A stretch of 64,000 nt of DNA from Siphonodentalium dalli (lineage: Eukaryota; Mollusca; Scaphopoda; Gadilida; Siphonodentaliidae), in contig CP136067.1 in the NCBI GenBank assembly GCA_032622095.1, positions 178,532,556 to 178,596,555 of the forward strand. The letters are read 5' to 3'. This document shows positions 4,638 to 56,088 of this stretch, piece by piece; position 1 is the stretch's first letter, and each line of letters starts with the position of its first letter. Under the pieces are notes generated by a model. The model was not told the origin of the DNA. It was given only the letters and a program-made list of their open reading frames with translations, and did not search any database. Both the position numbers and the translations under genes were made by a program.

Positions 4638-6370
4638 ACTAGCCGATGAGCCCGACGTTGTCCGGGCTATTCAAAAACCAAATTTCAAGTCGATAGCTCC
4701 ACCCATTTCCGAGATCTGGTCTGCGCATGCGCGAAGCTGGCGTCGCACGGGCTCGGCGACCCGATAAAATTCGCATCCGGGGCAAGATACATTCACATAC
4801 CAAATTTCAAGTCGATAGCTCCACCCGTTTCCGAGATCTCGTCTGCGCATGCGCGAAGCTGGCGGTCGCACGGGCTCGGTGACCCGATAAAATTCGTAAC
4901 CGGGGCAAGATACATTCACATAGCAAATTTCAAGTCGATAGCTCCACCCGTTTCCGAGTTCTCGTCTGCGCACGCGCGAAGCGGGCGCCGCACGGGCTCG
5001 CCAATACGACAACGTCAACCGCCTGGTCAAACTACACACACGTACCAAGTTTCGTCGCGATCGGTCGAGAATCGTAGATTTGTATCAATGACAGACAAAC
5101 AAACATACATACAGACAAACAGAGGTCTTCAAAATAGCTCTACCTGTTTCCCAGATCTGGTATGCGCATGCGCGAAGCTGGCGTCGCACGGGCTCGGCGA
5201 CCCGATAAAATTCGTATCCGGGGCAAGATACATTCACATACCAAATTTCAAGTCGATATCTCTACCCGTTTCCTAGATCTCGTTTGCGCATGCGCGAAGC
5301 TGGCGTCGCACGGGCTCGGCGTCCCGATAAAATTCGTATCCGATGCAAGATACATTCACATACCAAATTTCAAGTCGATAGCTCAACCCGTTTCCGAGAT
5401 CTCGTCTGCGCATGCGCGAAGCTGGCGTCGCACGGGCTCGTCGACCCGACAAAATTAGTATCCGGGGCAAGATACATTCACATACCAAATTTCAAGTCGA
5501 TAGCTCCTCCCGTTTCCGAGATCACGTCTGCGCATGCGCGAATCGGGCGCCGTACGGGCTCGCCAATACGATAACGACGACCGCCTGGTCAAACTACACA
5601 CACGTACCAAGTTTCGTCCCGATCGGTCGAGAATCGTAGATTTGTATCAATGACAGACAGACAGACAAACATACAGACAAACAGAGGTCTTCAAAATATA
5701 TATGAGACTAGCCGATGAGCCCGACGTTGTCCGGGCTATTAAAAAAACAAATTTCAAGTCGATAGCTATTCAAAAACCAAATTTCAAGTCGATAGCTCCA
5801 GCCGTTTCCGAGATCTGGTCTGCACATGCGCGAAGCTGGCGTCACACGGGCTCGGCGACCCGATAAAATTCGTATCCGGGGCAAGATACATTCACATACC
5901 AAATTTCAAGTCGATAGCTCCACCCGTTTCCGATATCTCGTCTGCGCATGCGCGAAGCTGGCGTCGTAGGGCCCGGCTACGCGATACAATTCGTATCCGG
6001 GGCAAGATACATTCACATAGCAAATTTCAAGTCGATAGCTCCACCCGTTTCCGAGATCTCGTCTGCGCATGCGCGAAGCTGGCGTAGCACGGACTCGGTG
6101 ACCCGATAAAATTCGTATCCGGGGCAAGATACATTCACATAGCAAATTTCAAGTCGATAGCTCCATCCGTTTCCGATATCTCGTCTGTGCATGCGCTGTA
6201 CTGGCGTCGCACGGGCTCGCGAATACGACAACGACGACCGCCTGGTCAAACTACACGCACGTACCAAGTTTCGTCCCGATCGGTCGAGAATCGTAGATTT
6301 GTATTAATGACAGACAGACAGACAAACAAACAGAGAGACAGACAGACAGATGTCTTCAAAATATATATGA
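4638..6370 (+). repeat. Composite of tandem SINE-like elements with a 122-bp internal repeat
   Basis: Heads at 4638 and 5706 read CTAGCCGATGAGCCCGACG and TTGTCCGGGCTATT. They are followed by units of about 122 bases that start CAAATTTCAAGTCGATAGCT at 4679, 4801, 4924, 5242, 5364 and 5486, and again from about 5745 through 6143. Each block closes with a tail containing GTTTCG, CGATCGGTCGAGAATCG and GACAGACAGACAAAC microsatellite (ending near 5130, 5700 and 6370). The middle block lacks a head, as expected from unequal recombination. The long minus-strand frames here merely reflect a stop-poor repeat. Confidence 0.75.
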
Positions 6371-20856: not shown

Positions 20857-21071
20857 ATTAAATATGACATTCAGTTGATTTGCATTTTCATGATAGTGTC
20901 GTGACAGTTTGCCCTCTGTTGACAGCATCAATGCTCTAATCAGAACAATTTTTATACTTTCTGATAGTGTGTTCTAATATCTTCAAAATGACTCATAAAT
21001 CATTAATATCCAATTTAAATAAGATAATATGTATGTCAATACCATTTCCACTACATATAACGATCTGGCAT

Positions 21072-21951
21072 ATATGGGGCGCCATCTCTGCAAATATTCG
21101 TTTTCGGATATATCTCCTTGGACCCAAGCAGATATCTGCTCGCATTATGGATATATATCCTCGGTTTCAAGGAGATATCTGCTTGGAATATGGAGATATC
21201 CCCTCGGAAATATTTTCAAGGAGATATCTCCTTGAAACCGAAGAGATATCTCCATAATGCGAGCATATATCTGCTTGGATCCAAAGAGATATCTCCTTGG
21301 GTCCAAGCAGATATCTGGTCGCATTATGGAGATATCTCCTTGAAATATGTTCAAGGAGATATCTCCTTGGATCCAAGCAGATAGCTGCTCGCATTATGGA
21401 TATATCTGCTTGAAAAATATTTCAAGGATATATCTCCATATTCCGAGCATGATAGCTGCTTGGATGTATTTCGTTCATAGATATATGTACTGTGGAGAAA
21501 TCATTAATATTTCATGGCCGCGGTTTTCCAAAGAGATATCTCCATAATCCAAGCAGATAACTGCTAGGAATATTTTCAAGGAGATATCTGCTTGGAATAG
21601 GGAGATATCTCCTTGTGTCCAAGGATATATCTCGTTGAAAACTATTTCAAGGAGATATCTCCATAATCCGAGTAGATATCTGCTTGGATTATGGAGATCT
21701 CTCCTCGGTTTCAAGGAGATATCTTCTTGGATTATGGAGATCTCTCCTCGGTTTCAAGGAGATATCTCGTAGTTGCGAGGAGATAACTCCTAGGATCCAA
21801 GGACATATCTCCATAATGGACCATATTCCAAGCAAATATCTGCTAGGAATTGCAATTCCAAGGAGATATCTCCTCGAAACCGGGGAGATATCTCCGAATT
21901 ACGAGGAGATATATCCGAAAACGAATATTTGCAGGGATGGCGCCCCATAGG
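21072..21951. mobile_element. Fold-back element built of GATATC palindromes
   Basis: The terminal inverted repeats are about 45 bases and nearly identical: TGGGGCGCCATC, then YCTGCAAATATTCGTTTTCG, then GATATATCTCC. TA flanks both ends, consistent with a TA target. Between them nearly all sequence consists of variants of AAGGAGATATCTCCTTGG joined by TTATGGA, CCAAGCAGATATCTGC or GAAAC spacers. About 18 exact GATATC cores plus degenerate ones are visible. The open frames on both strands here are periodic artefacts. No coding gene. Confidence 0.85.
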
Positions 21952-21959
21952 CGTAAACA

Positions 21960-27286: not shown

Positions 27287-28300
27287 ATTGCGCTTAATCG
27301 CAAATAATTGCACTTAAGCACAATCAATTGCGCTTAAGCGCAAATACCACATATTGTGCTTAAGTACAAATAGGGCATTTACGCTTAAGAGTAATGTATT
27401 GCGCTTAAAATGTGCTTAAGCGCAATGAATTGCGCTTAAGCGTAATTGTGACTACTATCTACCCTACCCATAAACTATTGGCATGACCTGCTGTATCACA
27501 TACCAACACAAGAGGTGCATTGGGCTAATTTTGGCCTGTTTTAATTAGCCTGAGTACTCAACAGTCAACTGTGAGTATGTTTTCAACAATGATAATCCAT
27601 AATTACATATTATCAGCATCCATATATCCAAAGAATTGATGTCTCCTTCCCGGAACTCTAGTAATTTTTTATATGATGTTTTTTAATGTATTTTTGCACA
27701 GATTTGGGCCATTACTATAGTCATATACTATAGCATCTGGTGTCACTGCATGAGGGCTTGCTTACCTCATATGGTTTACTTATTGACTTAAATCGGGGAT
27801 AAACCCTATTTTCATATTATCAGCATCCCTGTTCCAAATAATTGGTGTCTCATTTCTGAAGCGTTGGTGTCTCAGTCCTCGAGCTCTAGTTTGTTTTAAT
27901 TAAATCAGCATCTCTTGCATAAATCTATAGTATTTCCATCTCATATAGTGTGAATGTGGTGTCACCAATGGCTTCCCTCATACGGTATGCCTGTATACTC
28001 GAAAATTGAAGAAAATCAAAGTTGCCCCAACTAATAAATACCGAAGATAATATAATGCTATCACGAGTCACTCCAACTAAAACAGAAGGTCATACTGTTG
28101 CAAGTCAGCCATTTTGATAAAGACGTTGGGCTGGCCCTCTACCCATCTAAATCAATGAACACAAGAGGTGATATATCAATAGGAGTTAAGGTTAAGTTAT
28201 GGATAAACCTATTTATTCACCAGGGGTGTTTAGTTACATATAACCATGAATTGCGCTTAAGTGCAAATAATTACGCTTAAGGGCAAATAATTATTAAATG
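27287..28300. repeat. CTTAAG-palindrome clusters (TTGCGCTTAAGCGCAA family)
   Basis: 27287-27450 contains about seven variants of the 16-base palindrome ATTGCGCTTAAGCGCAA, and 28250-28295 contains two more. The 800 bases between hold no recognised gene. The clusters could be the two ends of one element, with inverted orientation trivially satisfied by the palindrome. Confidence 0.6.
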
Positions 28301-28531: not shown

Positions 28532-30246
28532 ATGGATAGTAAAATGAAAACCAAACGGGTATCCAATGTCTCAGAACTGAATATTCTGAATAACACTTCA
28601 CCCAAATTATTTTTGAAAAAACTAGACCAGCTGAATCAGGGAAGTAACACTGACCAATATAATAAATTGTGCAAGATCTCATTGGATTCTTTCTTTAAAT
28701 GTTTTAAAGATATGAACACAGAGTGCGGCGATGATGATGATGATGATAATGATGATGATGGTTGTTTGGAATATAATTTTAAGGCCGATCTTGATTTATT
28801 GAACTCTTCCTATCTCAATGATGAATTCAATGAGAATGAAATTCTCATGGCGATTAGAAAACTGCGTGACAATAAGGCCCTGGGTTTTGACAGAGTATCA
28901 AACGAATACATTCAAGTATCTGCGGAATACGTGCTACCAACCCATACAAAATTTTTCAATGCCATACTTGACAGTGGATACTACCCATCGGGGTGGACAA
29001 TTGGCATGATACAGCCAATCTATAAAAAATCAGGTGATGTTCATAAGCCTGATTCTTATCGAGGAATAACTATTTTGAGCTGTCTGTCTAAAGTTTTCAC
29101 ATCTATCTTAAACACAAGTCTGACATATCTTTCTGAAGATAATGAAATCATAAGCAAATATCAAACTGGTTTAAGGAAAGCGCACTCCACAATTGACAAC
29201 ATCTTTATACTGCAGAGTATTACCAGTTTATTTGTCAATTGGTAAGAAATTGTATTGTGCATTCATTGATTTCCGTAAGGCATTTGACACGGTGTGGAGA
29301 TGCTAGATTGTGGAATTAGCGGGAAGGACATGTGTAGTAAAAGTAATATGTGTGTTAAAGAGGGCGGAGCAAACTCCGAGTTCTTTTCTTGCAATGTTGG
29401 CCTATTTCAAGGTGAATTAATGTCACAATTTCTATTTTCTTTATATATTAACGACCTCACAACCTTTCTGTCAAATTGTGCACTAAATAACCTCCAATTT
29501 CTAGACAATATTTACATGGAATATATTGGAATTTATATAAAATTACTTTGTATATGTTATGCAGACGACACGGTCCTGATTACCGAGAATGAAGAAAATA
29601 TGCACGGCGCTTTGTGGGCATTTTCCGACTATACCGATGCATGGAAGCTCCACGTTAATACTAGAAAGACTAAAATTGTGATTTTCTGTAAAAAACACTA
29701 CCGAAAAACCTGCCGATATTCATGTACAGTGGAGGAGAATTGGAAATAGTTAAAGAATTCAAATATCTTGGGGTTAATTTCTTTTATAATGGGAGATATT
29801 CCAATGCATTGAAACAAATTCATAACGCAGCAACGAAAGCCATGTATGGCCTGCTCAATAAAGTGCGTAAACTCCACCTTCCAGTGAATTTGATGCTGAA
29901 ACTCTTCGATAGTATGGTAGCTCTTTATGGTAGTGAAGTTTGCTGCTTCGAAAAATGTGATATTATAGAGAAATTGCATATGAAATTTTGTAAAATCCTT
30001 TTGCGCATGAAATCTAGCACACCTAATTATATAGTATACGGAGAGCTTGGTAGACATCCACTGGTAATTGATATAAAATGCAGGGTGTTGTCATACTGGT
30101 CAAAACTAAACTCCTCCGACGGATCTGAATTAGCAAAGAATATTTATCTTGTGATGAAGGAGGTCCATAACAATGATAGCACATATTCTGGAAAACTTAA
30201 ATGGTTTGAGTTTATAAAATTAAGATTGAAAATATATCAATACTAG
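28532..30246 (+). pseudogene. LINE reverse transcriptase relic (CR1/Jockey/RTE-like)
   Basis: Three consecutive frames (28532-29245, 29250-29749 and 29722-30246) together resemble the reverse transcriptase and post-RT region of a non-LTR retrotransposon ORF2. Visible blocks are KLRDNKALGFDRVSNE, PIYKKSGDVHKPDSYRGI, YQTGLRKAHSTIDN, the palm motif FIDFRKAFDTVW (about 29258-29300), YINDL, CYADDTVLI (29555-29581) with the catalytic YADD, and post-RT KEFKYLGV and SSTPNYIVYGELGRHP. At least two frameshifts and an apparent deletion near 29300 break it. The endonuclease domain is absent (5' truncation) and the C-terminal zinc knuckle is missing. The element at 53647-55640 is a close relative. Clade assignment is approximate. 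Confidence 0.85.
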
Positions 30247-31245: not shown

Positions 31246-32080
31246 CAAAAATAGACGGTTGTGCCATTGCTCTGACCAGAACTCTATGGTGGTCTGATCA
31301 GCGATGGAACATAACTCTGTAGTGATTTCATCAACGAGGGACAAAACACTGCCTTGCAGTTTGTCCTCGGCGTTGTTAATACCGTAACCACGGATACACC
31401 TATAATGAATGTTCACATTGATTCTGTTTCCATGCTTGGCGACAAATATTTCCAAGACGGAAACATCCTCCAGAATGTTCTTTTATTTCTATTGTCGGTT
31501 TATATTTTCGCCGACTGTTTACGAACATGCCGTATAATATATGTTGGTCTGTACTCATCAATTTGTTCGATAAAAAATGTCGACAATGTCTCGATATTGT
31601 CGTATAAAATGAATCACTATACGACAGCTTTGAACTGTCAAATCCTTCTGGAAGCGACAGCCCGAACTTGTTTCTACTACCTACGAGATCTCGGAAATAT
31701 CCCATGTCCACCCACATGAAATATTTCTCGTCGCTATAGTTAAGAATCGTCCCATGCATTGCGCACGAATATTCCGGAACTACAGTGTTTGGAAGATGTT
31801 GTGGGTAATTAGGTTGTTTGAAAACCTTATCCATTGTATCCCTCAAACCAAAGGACCATAGCGAAGTTCGATTAACCAGCTTGGATACAATGGTCGGTGA
31901 ACTCGCAACACCCTTGAAGTATTCTAGCATTTTAATGTCGTCGAAATGAGCCACACAATTATTCTGAATGGTTGCATAAGCTTTCATCCAATTCATGTAG
32001 GTCTTGTTAGAGAATACGTTGTTCCTGTCGCCTTTGAAGAAATTTCCGATATTTAAGTAACTGGTTACTATGACAATGTC
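31246..32080 (-). pseudogene. HtrL/YibB-like relic, copy A
   Basis: The minus strand from about 32080 to 31400 encodes an HtrL-family domain: a TYMNWMKAY block, LRDTMDKVFKQPNYP, NTVVPEYSCAMH, KYFMWVDMGYFRDL, then NKLMSTDQHILYGMF. It remains open for 198 codons from 31996. Compared with copy B it lacks 21 bases after CAMH and 98 bases around the block coding for VWVAGGAVLAS. The 98-base loss cancels a one-base frameshift in the T-run at about 31568-31576. A stop (TGA) lies just ahead of the domain start in this frame, and no ATG or splice acceptor is evident there. It is therefore probably non-functional despite the open frame. The repeat unit continues to 31246. Confidence 0.75.
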
Positions 32081-53646: not shown

Positions 53647-55640
53647 TTACTTCAACACTGAAGTCTTTTTCGAGGAGAGCAAGATACGGAATTTTGCGCT
53701 ATTAGGATATTTGTGGTATGCCTTCGGGATATACTGCTCTCTTTCGTGAGACATTTCTGCGCAATGAAATATATAGTGCATTTCATCTCCCAACAAGTTC
53801 TTATTACAAAGTTTACAGGTTCTTTTGTTACGTGGCGTCCCATTCCAACGTCCTGTTTCGATCGGTAATTGGTGATTACTAGTTCTAAACCTGGCTATGT
53901 TGAAAATAAAGTTATCTGTCAAATTGAGGCAATGTTCAGGTTTAAATTCACGTTTAATTAGCTTATACGTATTTCCACGACTCGAATTATCTATTGATCC
54001 ATGCCATTCTTGGATAAACTGGTCAATTAATCTCTGTTTTAATGGTTTTGATTTCTTTGAGATGACTATTTTTCCTTGGTTCAACCACCAGTGGGACATG
54101 CCTGTGTCATTCAGGGTACATGATACTGCCTCGATCCAAGCAAAGTGTGAGGGTGATTCATCTCGGAGTCGATACGCCAGTTTGTATAATAAACATGCAC
54201 GTTCGCTGCCAACATTCCCCACCAACTTACCCCAATATTGTATAATCTGAATCTTAATATTTATTGTTACAGGGTATCTGCCAAGCTCTCCATATACCAT
54301 ATAGTTCGGTGTTGATGGTTTTAATTTGAGAAGCATTTTACAAAATTTAAGGTGGACACGTTCGATGATAGAGTTGTCTCCAATACCCCACACCTCACAT
54401 CCATACAAGAGCACTGGCAAGACAATAGTGTCAAACAATCGTAAATGGTTAATTTCCGATAATCTTTTAGACCTTCCCATTTTAAACACGTCGTACATAC
54501 CTCTGATGGCTTTCGTAGCTATTTCACGTTTTGCCTGTGCAAAAGAGCCATTTCTGGTGAGTTTTATGCCCAAGAAGGTGAATGACTTAACGATGTCCAG
54601 GTCATCTTCTTTATATGTAAAGCGGACGTTTTTAGGTTGCCTTCCTCTACTAAATACCATTACCTTGGTGTTCTGTATGTTAACACTAAGCTTCCATATA
54701 TCGCAATAGTCTTCAAAGCAACATAGTACATACTGTAAATCCTCTTTCGTTTCTGACATAATTACTGTATCATCTGCGTATAGTAAAGCAAACAGTTTCA
54801 GGTAAGTATTCAGTTTTGTTTGGAGCTCTGTGGTTAATGTTTGCATTCCTCTCAACCCTGAGCTAGCTAGGAAGTCTGTTAAGTCATTGACATACATGCT
54901 AAAGAGGAAAGGTGAGAGGTTCGCTCCCTGTTTTAGGCCAATAAATGATGGGAATGATTGTGAGGATCGACCATCATGACTAACTTTTGATTTTACATTT
55001 TTATACAAATTTTGTATAACCTCTAGTATTTTTCCATTTATGTTGTTAATGGCAAGTTTATACCACATATCATCTCTCCAAATAGTATCAAACGCTTTCC
55101 GGAAGTCGATGAAGGCACAAATTAATTTATTAACTTTCAATTTACTTATCTCAAATAGAGTGTGTAATATATATATGTTATCGATTGTCGAATGCCCTTT
55201 GCGGAAACCAGTTTGGTTGTCATGGAGAATTCCAAAAATGTCGGAGTATTCATTGAGCCTTTCATTGGGAATAGATGTAAAAAGCTCGCTAAAGCAGCTA
55301 AGGTTAGTTATACCTCTGTAATTGTTAGGATCACTAGTTGTTCCTTTATTCTTGTATATAGGTATTATTGTACATACGAGCCATGATTCCGGGACAGAAC
55401 CAGAGTCGAAAATTAGATTAAACAATCTCACATATAGGGACATGAGTTTGGTCTCAGAGAATTTCAAGTACTCATTTAGAATTTCGTCATCAGATGACGA
55501 TGCTTTGTTTAGTTTCAATTTCTTGATGCATGTAGATATTTCTTGTTCGGTGATAGGGCGGTTTATAACGTCACAGCGAGAGCCCCCTTCCTTTTGAGAC
55601 TGACTTTGAGACGGAGTGGGTGGTGCTGTCTCGTTAAAAG
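53647..55640 (-). mobile_element. 5'-truncated LINE (RT ORF intact) inserted antisense in the MFS intron
   Basis: The minus frame from about 55640 to the stop at 53647 is uninterrupted for roughly 660 codons. In order: an EQEISTCIKKLKLNKA block, PIYKNKGTTSDPNNYRGI, QTGFRKGHSTIDN, FIDFRKAFDTIW (55082-55115), GLKQGANLSPFLFSMYVNDL, LYADDTVI with the catalytic YADD (54769-54780), KSFTFLGIKL, STPNYMVYGELGRYP, and a C-terminal C-x2-C-x8-H-x4-C zinc knuckle (CKLC...HYIFHC, 53757-53815). The upstream endonuclease and any ORF1 are missing. The frame stays open to 55902 only through a 19-bp satellite and unrelated sequence. The intact RT suggests a recent insertion. It is a relative of the relic at 28532-30246. 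Confidence 0.88.
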
Positions 55641-55674
55641 TATGTGACACATGTAGATTTGTATGTTGCTTATT

Positions 55675-55750
55675 GTGTGGCGAAATGCCACGGGTGTGGT
55701 GAAATGCCACGGGCGTGGTGAAATACCACGGGTGTGGTGAAATGGCACGG
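55675..55750 (+). repeat. 19-bp minisatellite, four copies
   Basis: GAAATGCCACGGGTGTGGT repeats with single-base changes at the 5' breakpoint of the truncated LINE. Confidence 0.88.
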
Positions 55751-56088
55751 GATTTTTCACCTCGTACGCTTGCTTCTTGCAATATATTTCGGGCAAAAGC
55801 CAGAAATATAAAGCCATCGTGTAACTTACAACACGGAATTTGTCTCGAATGATGCATTGTATGTTTCGCAATCGCCCACGATCGCTGCAGGTCCGCACAC
55901 AATCCCCACCCCCATAGATGTAACTATGATAAAGATACGTATACGAATGCATGTTGAAGTTTAATTAGAAGAGCATCATATGAGTTGTATATCATGACAT
56001 CCAGCTGTATAGTGGCTAAAACCGTACATCGTGTATCTAGAGTAGAGATTCGTGGCATAACGTACATGTACATGAGTTTACGGGGGTA

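Follow-up and report, generated by a model that had tools for sequence, protein, structure and literature searches.

An 877-bp, gene-less element at positions 21073-21949 of the window (the whole 64,000-nucleotide stretch of Siphonodentalium dalli DNA that was analyzed) is very probably a non-autonomous IS3EU-type element (MITE). Its interior consists of two palindrome arrays around a short core, with inverted ends and a target duplication outside (Table 1), and this architecture of ends plus palindrome arrays is as unusual as the sequence-only reading had held. We consider it likely that the whole is explained by an IS3EU MITE whose arrays would be dimer sites for its own transposase, kept after the gene was lost. 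Satellite-like repeats annotated as IS3EU, with other unit lengths, were already known in oyster; the window element adds to this known kind a MITE in which terminal repeats are combined with palindrome arrays. Elsewhere in the genome, a group of PF24764 transposons is distinguished by arrays of similar pitch, each family having its own palindrome.

Table 1. Parts of the window element, with positions in the window, and arrays found at other loci of the genome.
Feature	Position	Strand	Description
Left target-site duplication	21067..21072	.	GGCATA; 5/6 identical to the right one
Left terminal inverted repeat	21073..21118	+	Starts TATGGGGCGCCATC; inner end enters the first palindrome
Left array	21106..21455	.	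Palindromes of the GSAGATATCTSC type, with a usual spacing of 21-22 bp
Core	21456..21530	-	Non-palindromic; holds TTAATGATTTCTCC on the - strand
Right array	21531..21918	.	GSAGATATCTSC-type palindromes as in the left array
Right terminal inverted repeat	21904..21949	-	Ends GATGGCGCCCCATA
Right target-site duplication	21950..21955	.	GGCGTA
L036 array			TGATATATCA x34
L037 array			CGTGGCCACG x41
L040 array			CGTTTAAACG x30
L038 array			GTGATATCAC x14
L061 array			CCTAATTAGG x53
L063 array			CGAGATCTCG x17
L071 array			GTTAGCTAAC x12
L062 array			Interrupted palindrome GGAGA..TCTCC
L083 array			CTCGTTATAACGAG
L086 array			TTGCASCTGCAA-type unit
L033 array			21 bp, without palindromic symmetry
L035 array			23 bp, without palindromic symmetry
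L064, L065 arrays			Short, 20 bp

The terminal inverted repeats of the window element are 46 nt long with 45 of 46 positions paired (98%), so the inverted termini described from the sequence stand, and their supposed exactness over 45 bases gives way to a single mismatch. The palindromes of both arrays are centered on GATATC, and the element contains 32 AGATATCT sites (within 1 mismatch) and 27 GGAGATATCTCC sites (within 2 mismatches). Exact palindromes with arms of at least 6 numbered 11, compared with a mean of 0.55 and a maximum of 4 in 200 dinucleotide shuffles. Palindromes lie far above chance, but to call the element almost wholly palindromic overstated their extent: the 12-mers around the palindrome centers occupy 408 of the 903 columns of the family majority, and the remainder is spacers and a 72-bp core. 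Pooled over 33 copies, neighboring centers are most often 21 (n=344), 22 (n=299), 27 (n=77), or 28 (n=73) bp apart. The capacity to fold was borne out, with both foldings being exceptionally strong: the + strand folded as RNA reached -504.8 kcal/mol against a shuffle mean of -248.6 (z -27.6, 20 shuffles), the - strand folded as DNA gave a z of -31.25 (20 shuffles), and long hairpins were present, e.g., an 83-nt pair at 89%.

The element belongs to a multicopy family sharing its terminal repeat, as had been proposed, and a single copy is excluded. A 35-place pattern with at most 2 mismatches found 307 forward and 330 reverse ends (637) in the 2.23-Gb genome, and the reversed-pattern control gave 0 and 0. 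In a DNA search, the 40 scored of 452 candidates were 85-92% identical to the window copy (itself excepted). From 42 loci (the window, L002-L022, and L041-L060), 33 two-ended copies were drawn; 10 loci whose second end was not found in a span of 1300 bp were dropped. Except for the window and L002, the two-ended loci are a non-random set, picked among the 100 exact ends that headed the list. Of 27 copies aligned (five under 650 bp and L020 were omitted), the window copy has diverged furthest, differing from the majority by 6.3%, compared with 0.8-3.9% for the others. Conservation between copies was 0.971 in palindromes and 0.972 in spacers.

The expected length variants with a common terminal repeat were also found. 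Copies with the same flanks range from 458 to 920 bp in the GGTGAA cluster and from 470 to 947 bp in another. Because lengths differ within one flank cluster, we infer that arrays shrink or grow after insertion, and the sharing of flanks suggests that copies travel inside other repeats. Three copies within ~11 kb (L052-L054; C3:63628335, 63632398, and 63639497) are 99.9% identical over 1.3 kb and are each interrupted at the identical array position, which is a local duplication. In L020 (C2:133220904-133222245), a second family end follows directly after another copy's GATATC at position 208, as though a palindrome of the family had served as the insertion target, and in L017 the target duplication is GATATC itself.

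The mode of insertion was read from the flanks. The 6-mers outside TATGGGG...CCCCATA were identical in 23 of 33 copies, with 5 further copies agreeing at 5/6, 3 at 4/6, and 2 at 3/6 positions. Flank identity over 2 bp occurred in 2/33 copies and over 3, 4, 5, 7, 8, 9, or 10 bp in 0/33, while left and right 6-mers paired from different copies agreed fully in 4 of 1014 cases. The 33 copies fall into 16 flank clusters, 13 of which have an exact 6-mer pair; L002 and L045, in the same cluster as the window copy, have a 6/6 duplication. Joined flanks with a single GGTGAA were found at 27 places (15 without mismatch, control 0), all of these empty sites lying at one host repeat, that of the GGTGAA cluster; a search for an empty copy of the window element's own host site found none. 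The constant ends, the fixed 6-bp duplication, and the empty sites indicate cutting and joining at staggered nicks, and the TA target duplication predicted from the sequence is replaced by one of 6 bp.

Several known types of element were rejected on these grounds. Membership in Tc1/mariner does not agree with the duplication (2-bp identity in 2/33 against 6-bp identity in 23/33). Polintons/Mavericks, although they too have a 6-bp duplication, carry many genes and have 5'-AG ends, whereas the window element is 877 bp with TATGG ends. Helitrons have neither a target duplication nor long inverted ends, and this family has both, at 6 bp and 46 nt. Foldback/Galileo elements have ends and a duplication length unlike those of the window element, their duplication being 7 to 9 bp, and 0/33 copies were identical at 7, 8, or 9 bp.

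The published signature of IS3EU fits the family. IS3EU elements are described as having TA..TA termini and target duplications of usually 6 bp (PMC10045372), and the fungal families as having TAYGG..CCRTA ends, inverted repeats longer than 30 bp at their termini, and duplications of 6 bp (PMC12730594). The ends of the window element are TATGG..CCATA and those of its family were counted 307+330 times in the genome, the duplication is of 6 bp (the window copy itself agreeing at 5/6), and the terminal repeat of the window element exceeds the 30 bp stated for fungal families. The assignment rests on this match of ends and duplication to the published signature, and its tie to a transposase is indirect. 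The likeness to IS3EU (with GingerRoot) extends to the TAYGG-ended relatives in the same genome, which encode an integrase-core protein; the window element differs in being gene-less.

Arrays of this kind are less easily placed. The available portions of the two IS3EU accounts (PMC10045372 and PMC12730594) contain no mention of fixed-pitch palindrome arrays, and a search of a library of open-access papers turned up none that deals with IS3EU palindrome arrays and none that contains GGAGATATCTCC. The oyster satellite DNAs CgiSat35 and CgiSat47 are annotated as DNA/IS3EU, which makes them tandem repeats linked to IS3EU by annotation, but their units are 690 and 129 bp and not palindromes of ~21 bp (PMC8268682). 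Galileo/Foldback of Drosophila resembles the window element in having long ends with tandem repeats. The end repeats of Galileo are reported to hold multiple binding sites for the THAP domain of the transposase, although Galileo belongs to the P-element superfamily (PMC3688188); these sites are the nearest precedent for the role that we propose for the arrays.

A profile search with PF24764 gave 126 matches in the genome (E 0.001) and matches in 0/14 control genomes, and flanking sequence was fetched for a selection of the 126. All 10 ORFs scanned match PF24764 above its cut-off, and D195 and E236 are invariant in the ORFs (9 aligned; 10 scanned), which lie within TAYGG-ended relatives. A PDB search with the transposase alignment returned 0 matches at E 0.001. 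Under a strict criterion, palindrome arrays were present in 12 of 39 loci; among control pieces, 1 of 21 from the window had one, namely the element itself, and 0 of 18 others did. The 39 are surroundings of PF24764 matches or of a relative (L089, found when the L038 ORF was used as a protein query) and include second copies of some families. The 12 array loci have nine palindromes (L036/L073, L037/L070, L038, L040/L074, L061, L063, L071, L083, and L089). Relatives that have an array carry it between the terminal repeat and the gene, upstream of the transposase ORF, with a pitch of 20-23 bp.

By the strict criterion, 27 of the 39 loci lack such an array, so neither symmetry nor the presence of arrays is a general feature. 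Among these loci, L033, L035, and L062 have arrays that are non-palindromic or interrupted, and others are arrayless in the stretch fetched; no comparable arrays were found there in L030, L032, L034, L039, L066-L069, L077-L079, L082, L084, L085, L087, and L088. Protein identity to L037 is 46% for L036, 47% for L040, 46% for L061, 41% for L062, 43% for L063, and 37% for L035, all of which bear arrays, and 25% and 34% for the arrayless L032 and L034. In L036/L073 and L040/L074, the TAYGG/CCRTA end on the array side was placed at the point where two copies diverge. L037 and L070 share theirs, and in L062, L063, L071, and L038 it was read from single copies, the L038 end being TATGGGGCGCC. The search for the 3' end of the L037 family gave only a weak match.

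The ORF of L038 (C8:20581037) encodes 233 aa, of the PF24764 domain only the last third, preceded by an N-terminal part that has a different origin. Relatives at three places (C2:193723371, C4:102407702, and C7:79530560) are 97, 96, and 94% identical without an internal stop, so this short type of protein may be kept.

Among relatives with a gene fragment, the closest to the window family, L089/L090, is a 2453-bp element at C4:26495070-26497522. Its tip is TATGGGGCGCC, in agreement with the 11-bp tip of the window family; its inverted ends match over more than 30 bp, units resembling AGATATCT number 13 on one side and 24 on the other, and CCTATC flanks it on both sides as an exact duplication of 6 bp. 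An exon within it is 41% identical to residues 5-83 (the N-terminus) of the L038 ORF. Since none of the 126 PF24764 matches lies within it, L089/L090 is a relative with a gene fragment and is not proven to be autonomous. L091-L094 are of MITE size (L091, 1354 bp; L092, 1243 bp; L094, 1245 bp; the left end of L093 was not found). They have TATGGGGCGCCGTTC-type ends and GTGATATCAC arrays on both sides, with an exon-1 (gene-start) remnant between; the duplications are exact in L092 (TGGCTG) and L094 (CCCATA), and the left tip of L091 is altered. This layout shows that the order end, array, core, array, end with a gene-start remnant occurs in sister families.

TTAATGATTTCTCC, which the core of the window family contains, occurs also immediately before the L038 start codon, and the core agrees with L089 at 18 of 22 bases. 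Shuffles reached the core motif score in 5 of 6 comparisons (L038 and L091-L094; 300 shuffles each) and missed it for L089 alone (23 vs 24; 300 shuffles). The kinship of this core with the L038 and L089 relatives is therefore suggestive only.

In the loci examined, no transposase gene was found together with the exact terminal repeat and array of the window family. As for an autonomous parent lacking the palindromes, which the sequence-only reading had named as a contrary case, the closest relative with a gene fragment has arrays, and no intact parent with an identical terminal repeat was found. The IS481 model NF033577 was rejected as transposase bait, as the 7 of 67 matches fetched (L023-L029) resemble LTR retrotransposons by eye; family ends were absent in L023-L026. 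When single exact ends served as bait for autonomous copies, 10 of 20 loci had a partner end and L058 a degraded one. In L044, L046, L051, L052, L056, and L059, the array stops and unrelated sequence follows, and no PF24764-type transposase was recognized in these six; L053 and L054 are near-copies of L052. An integrase-like open frame was seen by eye in L046 and another open frame in L052. An apparent 19.7-kb element between two exact ends (C1:128120240-128139991) is in fact two separate short copies.

Other features of the window were recorded. Two groups of palindromes resembling TTGCGCTTAAGCGCAA, nine in all with a pitch of ~20 bp, lie ~800 bp from each other (27287-27445 and 28252-28293) and have the look of a further element that carries an array at either end; an end search found no fitting TAYGG/CCRTA pair around 27287-28293. 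A 122-bp tandem repeat at 4669-6219 is present also in L034 and L040. The ORFs at 616-1683 and 31400-31996 are similar by eye; the first matches Pfam HtrL_YibB, and the second has no Pfam match. The ORFs at 28532-29245 and 53647-55902 match Pfam RVT_1; the former match is under the curated cut-off, and further ORFs after it resemble its continuation.

In the mechanism that we propose, a DDE transposase acting in trans would join the TATGG ends to a target with a 6-bp stagger. Each 12-bp palindrome would be a homodimer site for the element's transposase or for a regulator that it encodes, and the 21-22-bp pitch would put successive dimers on one DNA face, two helical turns apart. The many sites would provide transposase specificity and the loading of both ends. 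After loss of the gene, the ends and arrays would be retained because the transposase recognizes them, array length would be altered when units slip or recombine with one another, and other repeats would carry many of the copies along as they spread.

Symmetry within the units bears on this proposal. At ±5 from the center, the family majority has G-C in 21 and C-G in 8 units, so that 29 of 34 are complementary, a value reached by 1 of 5000 shuffles; this covariation may rest on few events, as the units are related by duplication. There was no excess from ±7 to ±10, and ±11 was borderline (248 of 5000 shuffles). These values suggest a symmetric unit of 12 bp. From the sequences, we infer that a 12-bp palindrome at two-turn pitch, specific to the family and upstream of the gene, resembles an array of dimer sites. 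That the array may act as a binding platform for an element-encoded protein is slightly favored by these features; weighing against a binding role, the palindromes are conserved no better than the spacers, and the arrays of some relatives are non-palindromic or absent.

Among the alternatives, an IS3EU-type MITE whose arrays draw a host factor or serve as a promoter, insulator, or silencing signal is possible though rather unlikely. The place of the array in the array-bearing relatives, upstream of the transposase ORF, is promoter-like, but palindromes differ between families at a steady pitch of 20-23 bp, a pattern that would fit an element-encoded binder better than a single host factor. It is more doubtful still that the array is a by-product, grown by slippage or template switching at hairpins and carried along in an IS3EU-type MITE. 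The unstable array length, the equal conservation of palindromes and spacers, and the non-palindromic arrays of L033 and L035 are consistent with such growth; against it, arrays recur at the same place and with similar pitch in families with different units, and the symmetry excess at ±5 lies inside the 12 bp. The replication- or folding-driven element suggested by the sequence-only reading, in which hairpins or cruciforms of the array drive amplification and insertion, is very improbable: the strong folding with its 83-nt hairpin and the 458-920-bp range at GGTGAA would suit it, but it accounts for the change in array length and not for mobility, it is largely refuted by the 6-bp duplication, which with the constant ends of a published DDE superfamily and the empty sites points to cutting and joining, and such arrays are present in relatives with gene parts.

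Carrying the proposal of dimer sites further, we tentatively suggest, at somewhat less than even probability, an IS3EU clade with a transposon-specific operator code. Each family would have its own palindrome at two-turn pitch, read by its own transposase dimer, and families would thereby avoid cross-mobilization; the window element would be a gene-less parasite consisting of ends and operators. If the arrays are transposase operators, about nine parallel pairs of transposase and palindrome would exist in one genome, a ready set for studying DNA choice by integrase-like transposases. This would explain why the MITEs contain so little beyond their ends and array, and annotators of a little-studied superfamily would have a simple mark in a TAYGG end with an array of 20-23-bp pitch behind it.
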